DNA of 37,034 nt from a virus. Shown in pieces: positions 2,924 to 23,549 of this stretch. Where the stretch lies: IMG/VR virus record IMGVR_UViG_3300025013_000111, positions 1-37,034 of that record; one strand, written 5' to 3'. Position 1 is the stretch's first letter, and the number at the start of each line of letters is the position of its first letter. The notes under the pieces were generated by a model that saw nothing but the letters and a program-made list of their open reading frames with translations, had not been told where the DNA came from and made no database searches. Both the position numbers and the translations under genes were made by a program.

Positions 2924-5200
2924 ATGACACCTAAAACCCACTGCACCGCGAAAGAACTGGCCGGACTACCGGGTATGCCAAAGTCAATCAAAGGTGTGAT
3001 TGATCAAGGCGAGCGCGGAGAAATCGAGTCTCGCCCAACCAAAAAAAAGGACGGCAGCGACAGCAAGTTCCTTGAGTACTCCATCGCCTCCCTCCCGGCC
3101 GAGACACGCAAGGCCCTAGCCACCCAGAACACCAAGGTCGGCTATGATCCGGCCCCGGCTGTCGCGGCCGCCGCCGCCGCACGCGGCGCCAAGATTCGGC
3201 TCACCGCCGACAAGGCCGAGCGCAACCGCCTCGAGGCCCGCGCCGAATCCCTTGCCAGATTCAACCGCCTCCCGGCGTGGCAGCAAAAAGCGGCTAAAGC
3301 CAAGCTCGCGGTAATCAAATCCTGCAACCACTACATAACCACCCACCAACTGGCTAAAACAGCAGGCCAGAATACCTTCTGCCACGAATACGACCTGAAC
3401 CAAATCGACGTCGCCCCCTGGGTGCGCGCCGCGATCCCCAGCGTCCACCCCGCCACCCTGCGCAGTTGGATCAAGGACGAGCACGACCTCGGCATGATGG
3501 GCCTGGTCGACTGCTACGGCAACCGTAAGGACCAGAGCAAGATTGAAACCTGGAACCGCACCATCCTCCCGGGAGGCGAGGTTAGAGCTCCCCTGGCCGA
3601 TGCCATCGTCTCCCTGATCCTCAAGTATCCGCACATCAAGGAGAAGGCGTGCAACGAGTCGCTCCGCGCCATCCTCCCCGATGCGATAGATGTCAGCGAC
3701 AAGTCGGTGAAGCGCTACATGGACAAATGGAAGGCGCAAAACAAGCAGGAGTATGCCCTCGCAATCAACCCAGACGATTACAAGAATCGCTTCCAGCCTG
3801 CCTTCGGATCTCGCTCTGAGGGTATCGACGGTCCGAACCAGAAGTGGGAAATCGACGCCACCCCTGCCGACCTGCTGCTGACAGATGGTAGGCACAAAAT
3901 CATCGGCCTCGCCGACGTGGGGCCCCGCCGCCTGAAGTTCTACGTCAACAAGACCGAGCGCGCACGGGACAACGCCTTCGCGGTTCGCCGGGCGATCCTG
4001 GACTGGGGCGTACCCGCCGCCGGCGGCACTATCGTCACTGACCAGGGCGCTCCTTACCTGACCGAGCACTTCGAGCGGATCCTCTCCGACCTGGAGATCA
4101 ACCAGCACATCTGCAACCCCTACAGCGGCGACGAAAAACCCCATATCGAGCGCGGCTTCCAAACCCTGAGTCACGACCTGATAGAGCTCCTGCCCGGCTA
4201 TTGCGGCCACAGCGTCTCGGAGCGCCAGGCTATCGAGGCCCGCAAGAGCTTCGCCAAGCGCCTTAAGAACAAGGATGAGGTCATAGAGATCGCGATGACC
4301 TCAGAGGAGCTGCAGGCCTTTTGCGATCGCTGGTGCGAGAGCTACCACAACACGGTCCACTCCAGCCTCGGCAAGACCCCCAACCAGGTCATGGAGCAGT
4401 GGCCGCATCCTATCCGCCGTATCTCCGACGAGCGCGCCCTGGACATGCTGTTGTGCGAGGCGGTGCGCCCCGGCGGTCGGCTGCCGATCATCGGCAAGAA
4501 AGGGATCCGCGTCAACGGCGGCTTCTACATCCACCCGGCCCTGGGACGGCACGTCGGGGAGTACTGCCGGGCCTTCGCCGAGCCGGTCAGCCTGGGCCGC
4601 ATCATCGTCCACGTCAAGAACGAATTCGATGCCTGGGAGTTCCTCTGCATCGCCGAGGATCCCGACCGCGTTGACATAAGCCGCGCAGAGGTGGCGGTCG
4701 CGACCCGGGAGCTGCACAACGAGCACAAGAAGGAGATGGCGCGGCACGCCCGGGAAGCGAAGAAGGCTATCAAGGGGGTCGACATCGTTTCCGCAGTCCT
4801 GGCCCACCGTGAGAAGAAGGCGGCGATCGCCAAGGGGAACGTCACCCACCTGCCCCAACGGAGCGTGGAACACATCACCCCCGGCCTTTCTGCAGCCATG
4901 GAAGCGGCGGCCGCCCTGGAAAGGAGGTTGACCATCAAGCCGGAGCCGGCACCGGACGTGACCGCAGCCAAGGAACGGCTGAAGGCTGACATGGAGCGGT
5001 CCCAGGCGAGCAACGTGGCCAGCATCCAGGTCGAGTCGGTGCGGTCCCAGTACAGGCGGTGGAAGCGGTTGAAGACGGCCCTGTCCGAGGGCCAGATCAT
5101 CGACGAAACGGAGTACCAGTTTTACAGGAATTTCGGGCAGAGCGCCGAGTGCAGGGCCTACGCGGGTATGGAGGAAGAGTTGGGCGCCATCGCCAAATAG
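2924..5200 (+). CDS. MuA-like DDE transposase (transposase A)
   Basis: This 758-residue protein catalyses strand transfer for integration and replicative transposition of the phage genome. Residues 1 to about 60 resemble the Mu-type DNA-binding domain. The integrase core (about 300-440) shows the metal ligands Asp311 (WEIDATPAD), Asp373 (VTDQGAPY) and Glu409 (KPHIERGF), a DD(35)E spacing. A Mu transposase C-terminal beta-barrel follows (about 505-585), then a charged helical tail of the kind that contacts the B ATPase. It is longer than MuA (663 residues), and the D-to-E spacing is shorter than MuA's (about 55), closer to Tn552- or TnsB-type enzymes. The ATG follows GAGGGG. An A8 run lies at codons 40-42. 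The B ATPase gene is immediately downstream. Confidence 0.96.
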   Translation: MTPKTHCTAKELAGLPGMPKSIKGVIDQGERGEIESRPTKKKDGSDSKFLEYSIASLPAETRKALATQNTKVGYDPAPAVAAAAAARGAKIRLTADKAERNRLEARAESLARFNRLPAWQQKAAKAKLAVIKSCNHYITTHQLAKTAGQNTFCHEYDLNQIDVAPWVRAAIPSVHPATLRSWIKDEHDLGMMGLVDCYGNRKDQSKIETWNRTILPGGEVRAPLADAIVSLILKYPHIKEKACNESLRAILPDAIDVSDKSVKRYMDKWKAQNKQEYALAINPDDYKNRFQPAFGSRSEGIDGPNQKWEIDATPADLLLTDGRHKIIGLADVGPRRLKFYVNKTERARDNAFAVRRAILDWGVPAAGGTIVTDQGAPYLTEHFERILSDLEINQHICNPYSGDEKPHIERGFQTLSHDLIELLPGYCGHSVSERQAIEARKSFAKRLKNKDEVIEIAMTSEELQAFCDRWCESYHNTVHSSLGKTPNQVMEQWPHPIRRISDERALDMLLCEAVRPGGRLPIIGKKGIRVNGGFYIHPALGRHVGEYCRAFAEPVSLGRIIVHVKNEFDAWEFLCIAEDPDRVDISRAEVAVATRELHNEHKKEMARHAREAKKAIKGVDIVSAVLAHREKKAAIAKGNVTHLPQRSVEHITPGLSAAMEAAAALERRLTIKPEPAPDVTAAKERLKADMERSQASNVASIQVESVRSQYRRWKRLKTALSEGQIIDETEYQFYRNFGQSAECRAYAGMEEELGAIAK

Positions 5201-18230: not shown

Positions 18231-19294
18231 TGGACCAGGACGAGTTTAACGCCACCTTCAAACTGCCTTTCAAGGAAGCCAGCGAGTTCTTCAAAGGCAA
18301 GCTGTCCATAGCGGCTGCGACCTACGACGACATCTGGAAGGATCAGCACGCCCGCGCCTTCATGTCCGCCGGCGCAACAAAGGCGGAACTGGTTGCCGAC
18401 CTGCGCGGCGCCGTCCAGAAATCAATCGACGGCGGCATGAACCTCAAGGAGTTCCGAGGTCAGTTCGATGACATCGTGAAGCGTCACGGCTGGAGCTACA
18501 ACGGCGGCCGCAACTGGAGAAGCGAACTTATCTGGGACACCAACATCACCACCGCCTACCAGGCCGGGCGCTGGAACCAGTTCGAGACTTCGGGGACCGA
18601 GTATCTCAGATACCTCCACGCCGACGGCGTGCAGAACCCGCGACCCCTTCATGTCTCCTGGGACGGCATCACCCTCCCTATCGACGATCCCTGGATTCAG
18701 ACCCACTTCCCGCCCAACGGCTGGAAGTGCCACTGCCGCATGTGCAGGGCCGAGCGCGCCGAGCATGCAAGAGCCAAAGCGTCCGGCAGGGGGGATGCGC
18801 CGAAAGACGGGAGTTACCAGTGGGTGAACAAGCGGACCGGTGAGGTGCACCAGGTCCCCAACGGCATCGACCCAGGTTGGGACTACAACGTCGGGCAGGC
18901 ATCCGGGAGAAGCTACCGGGTGCTGGCGGACAAGTTCGAGACGCTTCCCCGGGACATCAGCCGCTCCTGGATGAAAGAGCACGTCGCCGGCCCTGCCTTC
19001 AGTCGCTTCTTTGAAGGAAAGATCGTGGGGCAGTTCCCCGTCGCCGTCCTCGAGGAGCAGAGGCAAGCCACCCTGCAGCTGGAAGGACAGACCGTCTGGA
19101 TGGACCAGGAAGTCCTTTCCGCGCAGGCAAAGCTGCAGTTGGCGGACTACCAGATGATCCCGACCATCCTGGACGCCGGCAAGCCAGTAGGGAGAAAAGG
19201 GCGCGTCTTCCAGTATGAGGAGGGCGGCGCCGTCTACCAGGCCACCCTGGACGGCAACAAGATCACCAGGCTGGTCCGGAAGGGCAAGGCATGA
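18230..19294 (+). CDS. head morphogenesis protein (Mu gpF-like, minor head protein)
   Basis: The protein has 354 residues from ATG 18230; a TTG one codon earlier is also possible. It belongs to the Mu F/SPP1 gp7 group: FNATFKLPFKEASEFF early, ELIWDTNITTAYQAGRWNQ and the conserved W-x-CHC motif (GWKCHCRM). It is a minor head protein that works with the portal in early capsid assembly. It lies between the portal and gpG-like genes as in Mu. Confidence 0.93.
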   Translation: MDQDEFNATFKLPFKEASEFFKGKLSIAAATYDDIWKDQHARAFMSAGATKAELVADLRGAVQKSIDGGMNLKEFRGQFDDIVKRHGWSYNGGRNWRSELIWDTNITTAYQAGRWNQFETSGTEYLRYLHADGVQNPRPLHVSWDGITLPIDDPWIQTHFPPNGWKCHCRMCRAERAEHARAKASGRGDAPKDGSYQWVNKRTGEVHQVPNGIDPGWDYNVGQASGRSYRVLADKFETLPRDISRSWMKEHVAGPAFSRFFEGKIVGQFPVAVLEEQRQATLQLEGQTVWMDQEVLSAQAKLQLADYQMIPTILDAGKPVGRKGRVFQYEEGGAVYQATLDGNKITRLVRKGKA

Positions 19295-19842
19295 GCAACT
19301 TGATCTCCAGTGTCATCGACGATCGCGCCGTTGTCCAAGCCTTCCGTGCGCTGGAGCGGTTCAGCGACAACCCGCAACACCTCCTGGAGGAGATCGGCCA
19401 GAGCTACGAGCGCCGCGTCCTGGAGAACTTCTCCCGGGAGAGCGACCCCGAAGGAAACCCTTGGGAAAAGCTTTCCAGCACCACACTGATGCTGAAGCTG
19501 GCCAGGGGCAAGCGGCTCAAGAAAAAAGGAACGCTGTCCAAAAAAGGGCGGGAGTACCTGCAGGGGAAGCGGCTCCTGGTGGAGTCGGGTGCGCTGCGGC
19601 GGAACGTCCATTACCAGGCCGACAGGAACTCCGTCAGGATCGGCGTCGGGGGCTCGGTTCCCTACGGCGCCATCCATCAGCGTGGCGGCATGGCCGGCCG
19701 TGGCAAGAAGGTCAAGATCCCCGCCCGCGCCTACCTCGCCATGAACGATGGCGCCGGGATGCGCCTTGCCGAGCGCGACCGCAGCATGGTGCTGCAGCTC
19801 ACCTATCGTCACCTCGACAACGTGGTCGGAGGAAAGCGGTGA
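19291..19842 (+). CDS. virion morphogenesis protein (Mu gpG-like)
   Basis: The protein has 183 residues. It belongs to the phage virion morphogenesis (tail completion) group: a conserved N-terminal helix, FSRESDPEGNPWEKL, the basic KRLKKKGTLSKKGR region, LVESGALRRNVHYQ, and VPYGAIHQRGG...IPARAYL. It is thought to act in tail completion or head-tail joining. The start overlaps the gpF stop. After it, the operon pauses at the second late promoter. Confidence 0.92.
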   Translation: MSNLISSVIDDRAVVQAFRALERFSDNPQHLLEEIGQSYERRVLENFSRESDPEGNPWEKLSSTTLMLKLARGKRLKKKGTLSKKGREYLQGKRLLVESGALRRNVHYQADRNSVRIGVGGSVPYGAIHQRGGMAGRGKKVKIPARAYLAMNDGAGMRLAERDRSMVLQLTYRHLDNVVGGKR

Positions 19843-19966
19843 TGCGAGCCCCAAATTCAGCCTGTAGCCGATTAGGGGCGGCAGAGGGTCGAACTGGACG
19901 GTGCAAAGGCCCTACAGGGAATTTTAAAGGCGGTTTAAAGACTATCCGGAAACCCGGCACCGACAA

Positions 19967-20010
19967 TTTACGGCGCCGTAAATGATCCTGCGCGGAACAT
20001 GCTGTACGGT
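19967..20010 (+). promoter_or_regulatory. putative late promoter for protease/capsid genes, activator dyad plus -10
   Basis: TTTACGGCGCCGTAAA (19967-19982) is a perfect 16-bp palindrome. It has the same arms as the site at 11921, and after exactly 22 bp comes CTG TACGGT (20005-20010), a -10-like hexamer. No -35 box is present. It lies directly before the protease gene, where Mu has PI. Transcription would start near 20017. Confidence 0.72.
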
Positions 20011-20041
20011 GCAGCTGCACCGCTTGAAAGAGGAGCGTGAC

Positions 20042-20068
20042 ATGGACGGAATAAGGAGGCCCTGCTAG
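20042..20068 (+). CDS. possible 8-residue leader peptide MDGIRRPC
   Basis: AGGAG (20031-20035) precedes an ATG at 20042 that opens an 8-codon frame ending TAG at 20066-20068. The last stop base is the first base of the protease gene's GTG. The frame includes AGG-AGG, which also forms that gene's Shine-Dalgarno, and ends in a Cys codon. Ribosomes could couple the leader to the protease gene. It is short, so this is tentative. Confidence 0.35.
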   Translation: MDGIRRPC

Positions 20069-21366
20069 TGGCGACACTCAGCTCAAACGAAAGCATGGAA
20101 GGCGCCTGGATCGAGGCTTTCAAATGCGGCCGCTGGACCGACAGCGCCGGCAACACCGACAACTGGACTCCGGAGAAAATCGACGCCCTTCTCGCGAAGT
20201 ACAACCCGACCTTTCACATGGCTCCGCTGCGGGTCGATCACGTCGAGCCGTTGCACCGCAAGGGGCGCGGCCCAGCTTTCGGCTGGATCAGCGCCGCCAG
20301 GCGCGAGGGCGACAAGGTGATGGTCAAGCTCTCCCAGGTGCAGCCGCAGTTCGAACAGTGGGTAAGGAGCGGCCTGGTCAAGTTCCGCTCCATCGCCTGG
20401 GATCCGGCCCGTGGTATCCACCACCTTGCGTTTCTCGGCTACAACTGCCCGGCGGTACCCGGGATGGAAAATGTCTACGACGACGGCGACGGCCTCGTCA
20501 CCATTCAGTTCGAGGAGGACTACCGTATGACAAAGCCCGGGGACAAAACCGGCAAAAGCCTGTTTCAGAAATTTATGGAGTTCATGAGCGGATCGAAAGA
20601 ACGCTCGAAATTCTGTGCCGATTGCACCGACCACGTCTGCATGTCCTGCTGCCCGACCGGCGCCATCAGCATGGTCCAGGACAAGGGCGCCGTCATCGAC
20701 CCCGCGAAGTGCACCATCTGTTACGCCTGCAGCCGGGCCTGCGCCATGATGCGTTCGCCCGTCGAGGGGATGGAAGTAGCCGACTACAACCAAAAGGAGA
20801 AGAACGAGATGAAAATCGAGGAAGTCGAAGCTATCGTCACCAAGGCAGTGACGACGGCAACCAAGTCTTTCAGCGATCAGCTGAAACAGTTTGAGGAGAG
20901 CAACAAAACTCTCGGCTCGGAAGTCACCAGTCTGCGCGAGCAGCTGGGCAAATCCGAGGAAGCCACCGACCGCAGGCAGTTCGAGGATTTCTGCAAGACC
21001 CTGCCCACCCGGGTAGCTCCCGCCACCATCCCCGCGATCGTCGATCACATGATGACCCTGAGAAAAGCGGCGGCGGTGCAGTTCGACGACGGCAAAGGGG
21101 GCAAGACCGAGAAGAGCCAGCTGGAGATGTATCAGGAGAGCCTCAAGGCCCTCCCGGAGACCATCCAACTGGGCGAGTTCGCGACCGGTGACCGTGCCGG
21201 CGTCCGTCACCAGGTCAACACGGCGGGTTCCGGGGAATTCTCCGGCCCGGTCGACCAGGAGCGCCTGGAGCTCCACAACGAGGTGCTTGCCTACCAGGAA
21301 TCCCATGCCGGCACCAGCTACGAAACGGCGCTCGGCATCGTCATGAACAACAAGGGGGGGAAATAG
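20068..21366 (+). CDS. capsid protease/scaffold (Mu gpI-like) with inserted ferredoxin-like domain
   Basis: The protein has 432 residues from a GTG start after AAGGAGG. Residues 1 to about 150 form the Mu-I-type assembly protease: LRVDHVEP (His58), FGWISAA, and FRSIAWDP (Ser108). Residues about 180-232 hold nine Cys with ferredoxin spacing: C183-x2-C186-x4-C191-x2-CC-P-TGAI, then C215-x2-C218-x2-C221-x3-C225. From about 248 a coiled-coil scaffold region follows. The Fe-S-like part is not expected in this family and lies in the linker between the two parts. The protein should cleave scaffold during head maturation. Two 4Fe-4S clusters are inferred; zinc binding is a possible alternative. Confidence 0.9.
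   Translation: MATLSSNESMEGAWIEAFKCGRWTDSAGNTDNWTPEKIDALLAKYNPTFHMAPLRVDHVEPLHRKGRGPAFGWISAARREGDKVMVKLSQVQPQFEQWVRSGLVKFRSIAWDPARGIHHLAFLGYNCPAVPGMENVYDDGDGLVTIQFEEDYRMTKPGDKTGKSLFQKFMEFMSGSKERSKFCADCTDHVCMSCCPTGAISMVQDKGAVIDPAKCTICYACSRACAMMRSPVEGMEVADYNQKEKNEMKIEEVEAIVTKAVTTATKSFSDQLKQFEESNKTLGSEVTSLREQLGKSEEATDRRQFEDFCKTLPTRVAPATIPAIVDHMMTLRKAAAVQFDDGKGGKTEKSQLEMYQESLKALPETIQLGEFATGDRAGVRHQVNTAGSGEFSGPVDQERLELHNEVLAYQESHAGTSYETALGIVMNNKGGK
20809..21366 (+). CDS. internally initiated scaffold protein (Mu gpZ-like)
   Basis: AAGGAG (20794-20799) lies 9 bases before an in-frame ATG at codon 248 of the protease gene. This would make a separate 185-residue scaffold, starting MKIEEVEAIVTKAV, of coiled-coil character. 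In Mu the scaffold Z is produced in this way from within gene I. The start lies just after the ferredoxin-like domain, so the scaffold form lacks it. Confidence 0.65.
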   Translation: MKIEEVEAIVTKAVTTATKSFSDQLKQFEESNKTLGSEVTSLREQLGKSEEATDRRQFEDFCKTLPTRVAPATIPAIVDHMMTLRKAAAVQFDDGKGGKTEKSQLEMYQESLKALPETIQLGEFATGDRAGVRHQVNTAGSGEFSGPVDQERLELHNEVLAYQESHAGTSYETALGIVMNNKGGK

Positions 21367-21369
21367 CCC

Positions 21370-22311
21370 ATGGGAAAAAACCAGTTTGCAGATCAGCTTT
21401 CCGGGCTCAGGGTCGTCGACCCGGTCCTTACCCAGCTCGCCCGCGGCTACACCAACGCCGAGTCCATTGCCGACCGCATCTTTCCCATAGTCGGCAACCT
21501 GACTCTAGAAAGCTCGGTGTACATGACTTTCGGCAAAGAGGCCTTCCGCCTCTACGCCACCGAGCGCGCCATTCGCGGCGCCTCCAACCGCATGACCCCG
21601 GGGAAGCCCTCCTCGGACAAATACGTCATGACCGAGCACGACTTGGAGTACCCGATCGACTACCGCGAGGAAGAGGAAGCCAACTTCCCCCTGCAGCAGT
21701 ACGCCACCAACCTCGTCGTCGCCGGCATCATGCTGCGCCGCGAGAAGATCGTGGCCGACCTTACCTGCAATCCTGACAACTACGGCGCCGGCAACAAGCT
21801 CGCCCTGGCCGGCGACGACTGCTTCTCCGAACCCGGCTCCGACCCGGTCGGCGTGGTTCAGGATGGCGACGAGTCGTTGCGCAGCCAGATCGCCAAGCGC
21901 GCCAACCTCATCGTCATCGGCGCCTCGACCCTGAAGTCCTGGAAGAAGCACCCGATGTTCCTGGACCGCATCAAGTTGACCGAGAACAAGGTCGTCACCC
22001 TGGAGATCATCAAGGAAGTCCTGGAGAAGGAGATCGTGGTCGGCGAGATGATCTACACCGACGACGACGGCACCCCGCATGACATCTGGGGCGACATGAT
22101 GTGGATGGGGTACCAGCCGGCGGCCACGGGCAAAGAGCGCACCATGTACGAGCCCAGCTTCGGATACACCTTCCGCAAGAAGAGCAAGCCCGTGGTCGAC
22201 ACCTACGTCACCAACGGCGGCAAGATCCAGCTGATCCGGAACACCGACTTGTTCGACGTCAAGATCGTCGGCGCCGATGCCGGGTACCTGGTCACCAACA
22301 CCAACAAGTAG
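21370..22311 (+). CDS. major capsid protein
   Basis: The protein has 313 residues. It is placed directly after the protease/scaffold gene and shows features of Mu-like major capsid proteins: ADRIFPIVGNLTLESSVYM, a mid-region with LVIG/LKSWKKHPMFLDR, and a C-terminal TYVTNGGKIQLIRNTDLF. It forms the icosahedral shell (HK97 fold is the family's known fold). It starts 3 bp after the preceding stop. Confidence 0.9.
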   Translation: MGKNQFADQLSGLRVVDPVLTQLARGYTNAESIADRIFPIVGNLTLESSVYMTFGKEAFRLYATERAIRGASNRMTPGKPSSDKYVMTEHDLEYPIDYREEEEANFPLQQYATNLVVAGIMLRREKIVADLTCNPDNYGAGNKLALAGDDCFSEPGSDPVGVVQDGDESLRSQIAKRANLIVIGASTLKSWKKHPMFLDRIKLTENKVVTLEIIKEVLEKEIVVGEMIYTDDDGTPHDIWGDMMWMGYQPAATGKERTMYEPSFGYTFRKKSKPVVDTYVTNGGKIQLIRNTDLFDVKIVGADAGYLVTNTNK

Positions 22312-23108: not shown

Positions 23109-23132
23109 CCGAACCTGCATAGGAGAATGCGT

Positions 23133-23549
23133 ATGCTAAAAAATCGTTTCACCATATTAATCATGCTGGCCGCCCTCGCGATCCTGATCTGCTTCGGCTC
23201 CATCGTTTTCGCCTCCGGGAAGATCCCCTATGACCGCTCCCGGAACCCGATGCCCAACCTGAAGAGCATCGCACCCGAAGTGGCCAAGAGCCGCTGCGAC
23301 TCCGTCACCGTCACCAAGGGGACCTTTAAGAGCTACACCACCGCCGGGTACGTCGGCATCGCCGTGGACGCCGCCGACTCCACCGGAGCACCGGTCAAGG
23401 GGAAATGGTTCCTGGACGGCCGACAGGTCGGAGTAGGGGCCGGTCCCTTCGAAGTCACCAACGCCAGCGGCAGCGCCTTTTCCACGTTCCGGTTTGACGG
23501 TTATTCAGCCGCCTCCAGGGCCGTCGATTTCTGCATCAGGCGCCAGTAG
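23133..23549 (+). CDS. signal-peptide-bearing protein in the head region, unknown
   Basis: The protein has 138 residues from ATG 23133 (AGGAG 7 bases upstream; an ATG at 23127 is too close to it). Residues 1 to about 27 read as a signal peptide: a basic start, a hydrophobic core LIMLAALAILICFGSIVF, then ASGK. The remainder is beta-rich with two Cys. It lies between decoration and gp36 genes, where no exported protein is expected. It might be a periplasmic or surface factor acting on the lysogen or at lysis. The terminator at 23572 follows. Confidence 0.65.
   Translation: MLKNRFTILIMLAALAILICFGSIVFASGKIPYDRSRNPMPNLKSIAPEVAKSRCDSVTVTKGTFKSYTTAGYVGIAVDAADSTGAPVKGKWFLDGRQVGVGAGPFEVTNASGSAFSTFRFDGYSAASRAVDFCIRRQ

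Follow-up and report, generated by a model that had tools for sequence, protein, structure and literature searches.

The window, as the whole stretch of viral DNA analysed here is called (37,034 nucleotides, IMG/VR record IMGVR_UViG_3300025013_000111), carries a head gene flanked by those of a virion morphogenesis protein (19291-19842) and the major head protein. Neighbouring genes encode a Mu portal, Gp27 and a Mu F-like protein, and a Mu-type transposase is encoded at 2924-5200. In a PHROGs profile search the whole 432-residue product matches phrog_976 (head maturation protease) over residues 8-429 with E 1.2e-46; this match, together with the Mu-type gene neighbours, identifies the open reading frame as the protease/scaffold gene of a Mu-like phage. 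Its parts, and the gene that follows it, are listed in Table 1.

Table 1. Features of the protease-scaffold gene and the adjoining major head protein gene in the window
Feature	Position	Strand	Details and basis
Head maturation protease/ferredoxin/scaffold gene	20068..21366	+	432 aa; GTG start; SD TAAGGAGG
Protease domain, residues 1-150	20068..20517	+	Alignment of 36 relatives; AlphaFold2 model
Second internal start, M154 (predicted)	20513..20529	+	SD AGGAGG 20513-20518, ATG 20527-20529; SD context in the three ferredoxin-bearing phages
2[4Fe-4S] ferredoxin-type domain, residues 181-230 (predicted)	20608..20757	+	Profile matches; ligand Cys; dN/dS
Scaffold start, M248 (predicted)	20794..20811	+	SD AAGGAG 20794-20799, ATG 20809-20811; start and SD in most relatives
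Scaffold domain, residues 248-432, with long helix 250-310	20809..21363	+	Domain layout; AlphaFold2 model
Major head protein (phrog_1005)	21370..22311	+	Profile match, E 8e-94

Several other features were noted around the gene. An inverted repeat, TGTACGGTGCAGCTGCACCG, lies at 20003-20022, 45-65 bases upstream of the protease start. It is found at the same place in the related loci L001, L131, L119, L122 and L125, being lengthened into a long stem in two of them (L131 and L125), and other hairpins occur near this place in L003, L137 and L092; the repeat possibly controls the head genes, as an operator or as an RNA element. A perfect 18-bp palindrome, ATTTACGGCGCCGTAAAT, also found in L001, occupies 19966-19983, approximately 85 bases upstream of the protease gene. 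Downstream, right after the cement protein gene, a small open reading frame (23127-23549), kept in L003 (L003:7729-8157), encodes a protein with a pair of Cys residues and, at its N-terminus, a membrane or signal segment; such a putatively exported product is unusual within a head operon.

The two outer parts of the protein are those of a conventional head protease with a nested scaffold. Residues H58, S108 and H119 are invariant in 36 aligned relatives and are candidate catalytic residues. In the AlphaFold2 model built with these relatives the protease domain is confidently predicted and the scaffold forms a long helix. When the model was submitted to Foldseek, KSHV protease chains were the top matches (probability 0.75-0.97, E 0.006-0.05) and T4 gp21 was a weaker one (probability 0.25); the modest E-values are explained by the use of the entire chain as the query. 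According to the model, the protease part has an assemblin-like fold, as in herpesvirus assemblins. A scaffold start of the M248 type (ATG or GTG with an SD sequence) is present at the equivalent place in most relatives, and in-frame nested scaffolds are known from Mu-type phages, e.g., KS10 (PMC2628397). The window protein thus shares with the Mu-type proteins of phrog_976 (Mu I/Z, KS10 gp28/gp29) its position before the major head protein gene, the order of protease and scaffold in a single frame, the internal scaffold start with an SD sequence, the three conserved residues and the predicted fold. In this comparison it alone has a ferredoxin linker domain and an extra internal start upstream, whereas it lacks the linker segment common to its relatives (EKFG..AD..).

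The linker domain had been proposed in an earlier note, made from the sequence alone, as a ferredoxin insertion with nine cysteine ligands between protease and scaffold. All nine cysteines (C183, C186, C191, C194, C195, C215, C218, C221 and C225; codons 20614-20742) are present in the translation, and the domain itself was borne out by profiles and relatives, but the number of ligands has to be reduced to eight: C194 is ruled out as the ninth since it is replaced by Ser in L001. The ferredoxin signature that the note recognised also stands, in the corrected form CxxCx4CxxxCP of the DMSO-reductase-type Fe-S subunits followed by CxxCxxCxxxC, so that the complete pattern reads CxxCx4CxxxCPTGA...CxxCxxCxxxC.

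The profile search against ferredoxin families that the note had suggested gave matches of the Cys segment in PHROGs (phrog_16249 'ferredoxin', E 3.8e-6) and NCBIfam (PRK09898 ferredoxin-like, 1.4e-7; FeFe hydrogenase B1, 1.9e-7; DmsB, 2.3e-6). Solved structures of Fe-S subunits were matched as well (E 1.6e-6, or 1.7e-6 with a profile of three sequences), with the cysteines of the domain aligned to their ligands. No Pfam Fer4 model reached its gathering cut-off, the best being Fer4_6 with 22.5 bits versus 25, and in L001 the Fer4 score was 20.3 bits versus 21.1; the ferredoxin assignment therefore rests on many concordant partial matches and on the ligand pattern. At E 0.05 nothing was matched by the reversed segment or by any of seven shuffled versions of the same composition, and these controls, together with the relatives that keep the ligands, rule out a chance cluster of cysteines. 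In the AlphaFold2 model the region has a pLDDT of approximately 40, as expected from just three sequences; at this low confidence, residues 200-210 (hairpin) and 218-228 (helix) are modelled in a way that fits a ferredoxin. Taken on its sequence, the segment of residues 181-230 is very probably a real ferredoxin-type domain, and it is likely to bind Fe-S clusters in vivo. The presence and conservation of all eight ligands point to two [4Fe-4S] clusters. Cross-ligation of the two clusters is usual in dicluster ferredoxins; by this analogy, the ligands of one cluster would be C183, C186, C191 and C225, and those of the second C195, C215, C218 and C221. With the CxxCx4CxxxCP subunits (DmsB, NrfC, NarH beta, HydN and HycB) the domain shares the ligand spacing of one dicluster unit, the CPTGA box and a significant match over 45-50 residues. 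It differs from these subunits in being a single dicluster unit inside a capsid assembly protein, in the absence of Pro after the last Cys and in having no catalytic partner.

The same domain is present in two further viral contigs, L001 (IMG/VR 3300025013_000085) and L003 (IMG/VR 3300018059_000020), whose proteins are 78% and 71% identical to that of the window; their major head proteins are 91% and 83% identical to its own. The eight ligand cysteines are invariant in all three. An assembly artefact or a chimeric contig, against which the earlier note had cautioned, is accordingly left with a vanishingly small probability, since the three contigs come from two metagenomes or more, with an identity of 71-78% across the whole gene. 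The known carriers are these three, all metagenomic and uncultured, and further scans of the viral collection yielded no fourth member. Among 25 matching records of a phage collection only two matched over most of the query, with 23-24% identity, and the ferredoxin segment alone found only weak matches there, to unannotated contigs (best E 0.004). The dN/dS of the domain, 0.16-0.19, is like that of the protease and below that of the scaffold (0.21-0.29), at a synonymous divergence of 0.6-0.8 among the ferredoxin phages; judged by these ratios, the domain is kept by selection. The head module is mosaic in places: the terminase, protease and major head protein of L003 are 70-84% identical to their counterparts, and its Mu F-like minor head protein (L003:2989-3801) is divergent, differing from those of the window and L001 (approximately 22% identity).

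All three ferredoxin phages have a start codon at M154 with an SD sequence just ahead of the domain (AGGAGG, AGGAG and AAGGAGG). The start is kept by different codons and the preceding residues vary (EEDYR, EQENS and KEGGS); among background ATGs, 4% of those in frame and 6% of those out of frame have such an SD sequence. L137, a relative without the domain, has no start at the M154 position, and the short linker-less relatives L005, L095, L099 and L125 have their scaffold start near it, so M154 may have descended from an old scaffold start. Three products are predicted, i.e., protease-ferredoxin-scaffold, ferredoxin-scaffold from M154 and scaffold from M248; given the second start before the domain, which the earlier note had missed, some scaffold chains would bear the ferredoxin but no protease.

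The Cys motif occurs in only 3 of approximately 100 related protease genes, most of which were retrieved via the major head protein. Two relatives without the domain are informative. L137 has a protease 68% identical to that of the window, a scaffold only 30% identical and a short plain linker; in L131 the protease is 31% identical, the scaffold 52% and the major head protein 78%. In the protease tree the three ferredoxin phages are monophyletic (support 0.94) with L137 as their sister (support 1.0). These patterns and the tree argue for one acquisition where two independently recombining modules meet, and the domain was, most simply, gained once, as a lineage-specific feature of a three-member clade. 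The joint has also been occupied otherwise: in the G264 prophages L142 and L155 it holds DUF6582 (E 8.5e-18), an additional folded domain at the identical place, unrelated to the ferredoxin and without a Cys cluster, which indicates that folded modules can be accommodated there.

No host is given in the virus record of the window, and its closest chromosomal relatives belong to the same order as a MAG titled Desulfuromonadales; this fits an anaerobic host and is not proof of one. The iron-metabolising host envisaged in the earlier note is a conjecture. That note had recommended looking for the same insertion in Mu-like prophages of Geobacter and relatives. The search made here covered the order and the phylum of that MAG and had a divided outcome: related proteases were recovered (in 10 of 141 genomes of the order and in 14 of 395 of the phylum), and the domain was absent from the related proteases examined. 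A search of the order for a donor of the ferredoxin gave no clear candidate, the best matches having 42-48% identity (E ~1e-6). In G074 a protease fragment with 73% identity (L132:11028-11690) runs into foreign sequence; this decayed Mu-like prophage (L117/L132) lies beside a run of N and was dismissed as evidence on the domain. L140, retrieved by a DNA-pattern search, proved to be an antisense chance match.

As the best explanation, with about an even chance of being right, we propose a single gain of the ferredoxin together with the extra start, the domain serving as a structural module folded around its clusters. A Mu-like lineage would have acquired a complete ferredoxin domain once, at the joint of the head protease and the nested scaffold, and with it the additional internal ribosome-binding site ahead of the domain. 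Ferredoxin would then be made in two of the three products, the full-length protein and the M154 protein, the M248 product being plain scaffold. In the procapsid core it would replace the linker, on some of the scaffold chains, as a module folded by its clusters; there it could act as a spacer between protease and scaffold helix or link scaffold chains, and so help to set the geometry of the core and the timing of cleavage. To such a structural role in the procapsid core we assign slightly less than an even chance. Against the proposal as a whole stand the approximately 100 relatives that build heads without the domain, which is thus not needed by the family, the missed Fer4 cut-offs and low pLDDT, and the small number of instances, three, all from metagenomes. 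Those same relatives, and a joint that recombines and takes other insertions, would suit a functionless domain caught there by illegitimate recombination; this is very improbable, however, because purifying selection and the co-acquired start count against a passenger, all ligands being kept at the synonymous divergence given above and the M154 start being preserved via different codons.

If the clusters do more than hold a fold, they might act, as the earlier note envisaged, as a redox or oxygen switch governing either the protease or access to the cleavage sites; maturation would then proceed only in a reducing, iron-replete cytoplasm, or upon loss or oxidation of the clusters. The location of the domain directly between the protease and its scaffold substrate, the full 2[4Fe-4S] ligand set, the likely anaerobic hosts and the precedent of an oxygen-sensitive [4Fe-4S] cluster in a phage structural protein, the lambda tail-tip protein gpL (PMC10721106), all agree with a switch, which we nevertheless consider unlikely; against it stands the plain M248 scaffold, which would lack the domain. 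It is rather unlikely, too, that the domain acts as a sensor of redox state, oxygen or cluster supply and thereby times scaffold cleavage, with the ferredoxin-tagged scaffold from the extra start setting the dose. The domain could instead be cargo, i.e., a folded ferredoxin too bulky for the capsomer pores that stays in the head once the scaffold has been digested and is delivered to the next host, or injected into it, as iron or an electron carrier. A folded domain of approximately 6 kDa would be about 24 Å across by our estimate, the procapsid pores of the Mu-like phage JBD30 are 13-15 Å (PMC11445458), and a separate ferredoxin-scaffold start would increase the copy number. The major head protein of JBD30, however, has no sequence relation to that of the window detectable by search, so its pore size may not apply and its procapsid was dropped as a structural model; moreover, the protein may unfold or be cleaved within the ferredoxin, and iron is of doubtful benefit to an iron-rich host. 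Cargo is therefore improbable. The sub-threshold Pfam scores, the missing Pro that usually follows the last Cys of the second motif (C225) and the failure of AlphaFold2 to give a confident ferredoxin fold would also be compatible with binding of zinc or another metal, or with a disulfide-rich fold, in a ferredoxin-like sequence that no longer holds Fe-S clusters. This is quite improbable, since all three phages retain, amid variation elsewhere in the sequence, the CPTGA box and the eight ligands with the spacing of Fe-S proteins, the class to which the matched families belong.

The earlier note knew of no Mu-type protease with such a domain, and the database records and literature searched contain no precedent, the papers describing no capsid protease or scaffold with an iron-sulfur domain; as far as the literature was searched, a ferredoxin domain in a phage head protease-scaffold is new. 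A parallel is lambda gpL with its relatives, which likewise have an Fe-S cluster in a phage structural protein, here predicted from sequence. The gpL cluster differs in belonging to the tail, in being single, held by widely spaced cysteines and not ferredoxin-like, and in being present in the mature virion, and its role is still unclear (PMC10721106). The protease-scaffold joint appears as a slot accepting different folded domains, ferredoxin and DUF6582 among them, a property that lends itself to studies of the control of core spacing and cleavage. If the clusters are bound, phages of this lineage would depend on the Fe-S supply of the host to assemble their heads, and the domain would give direct access to the coupling between maturation and cell state in phages of anaerobes.
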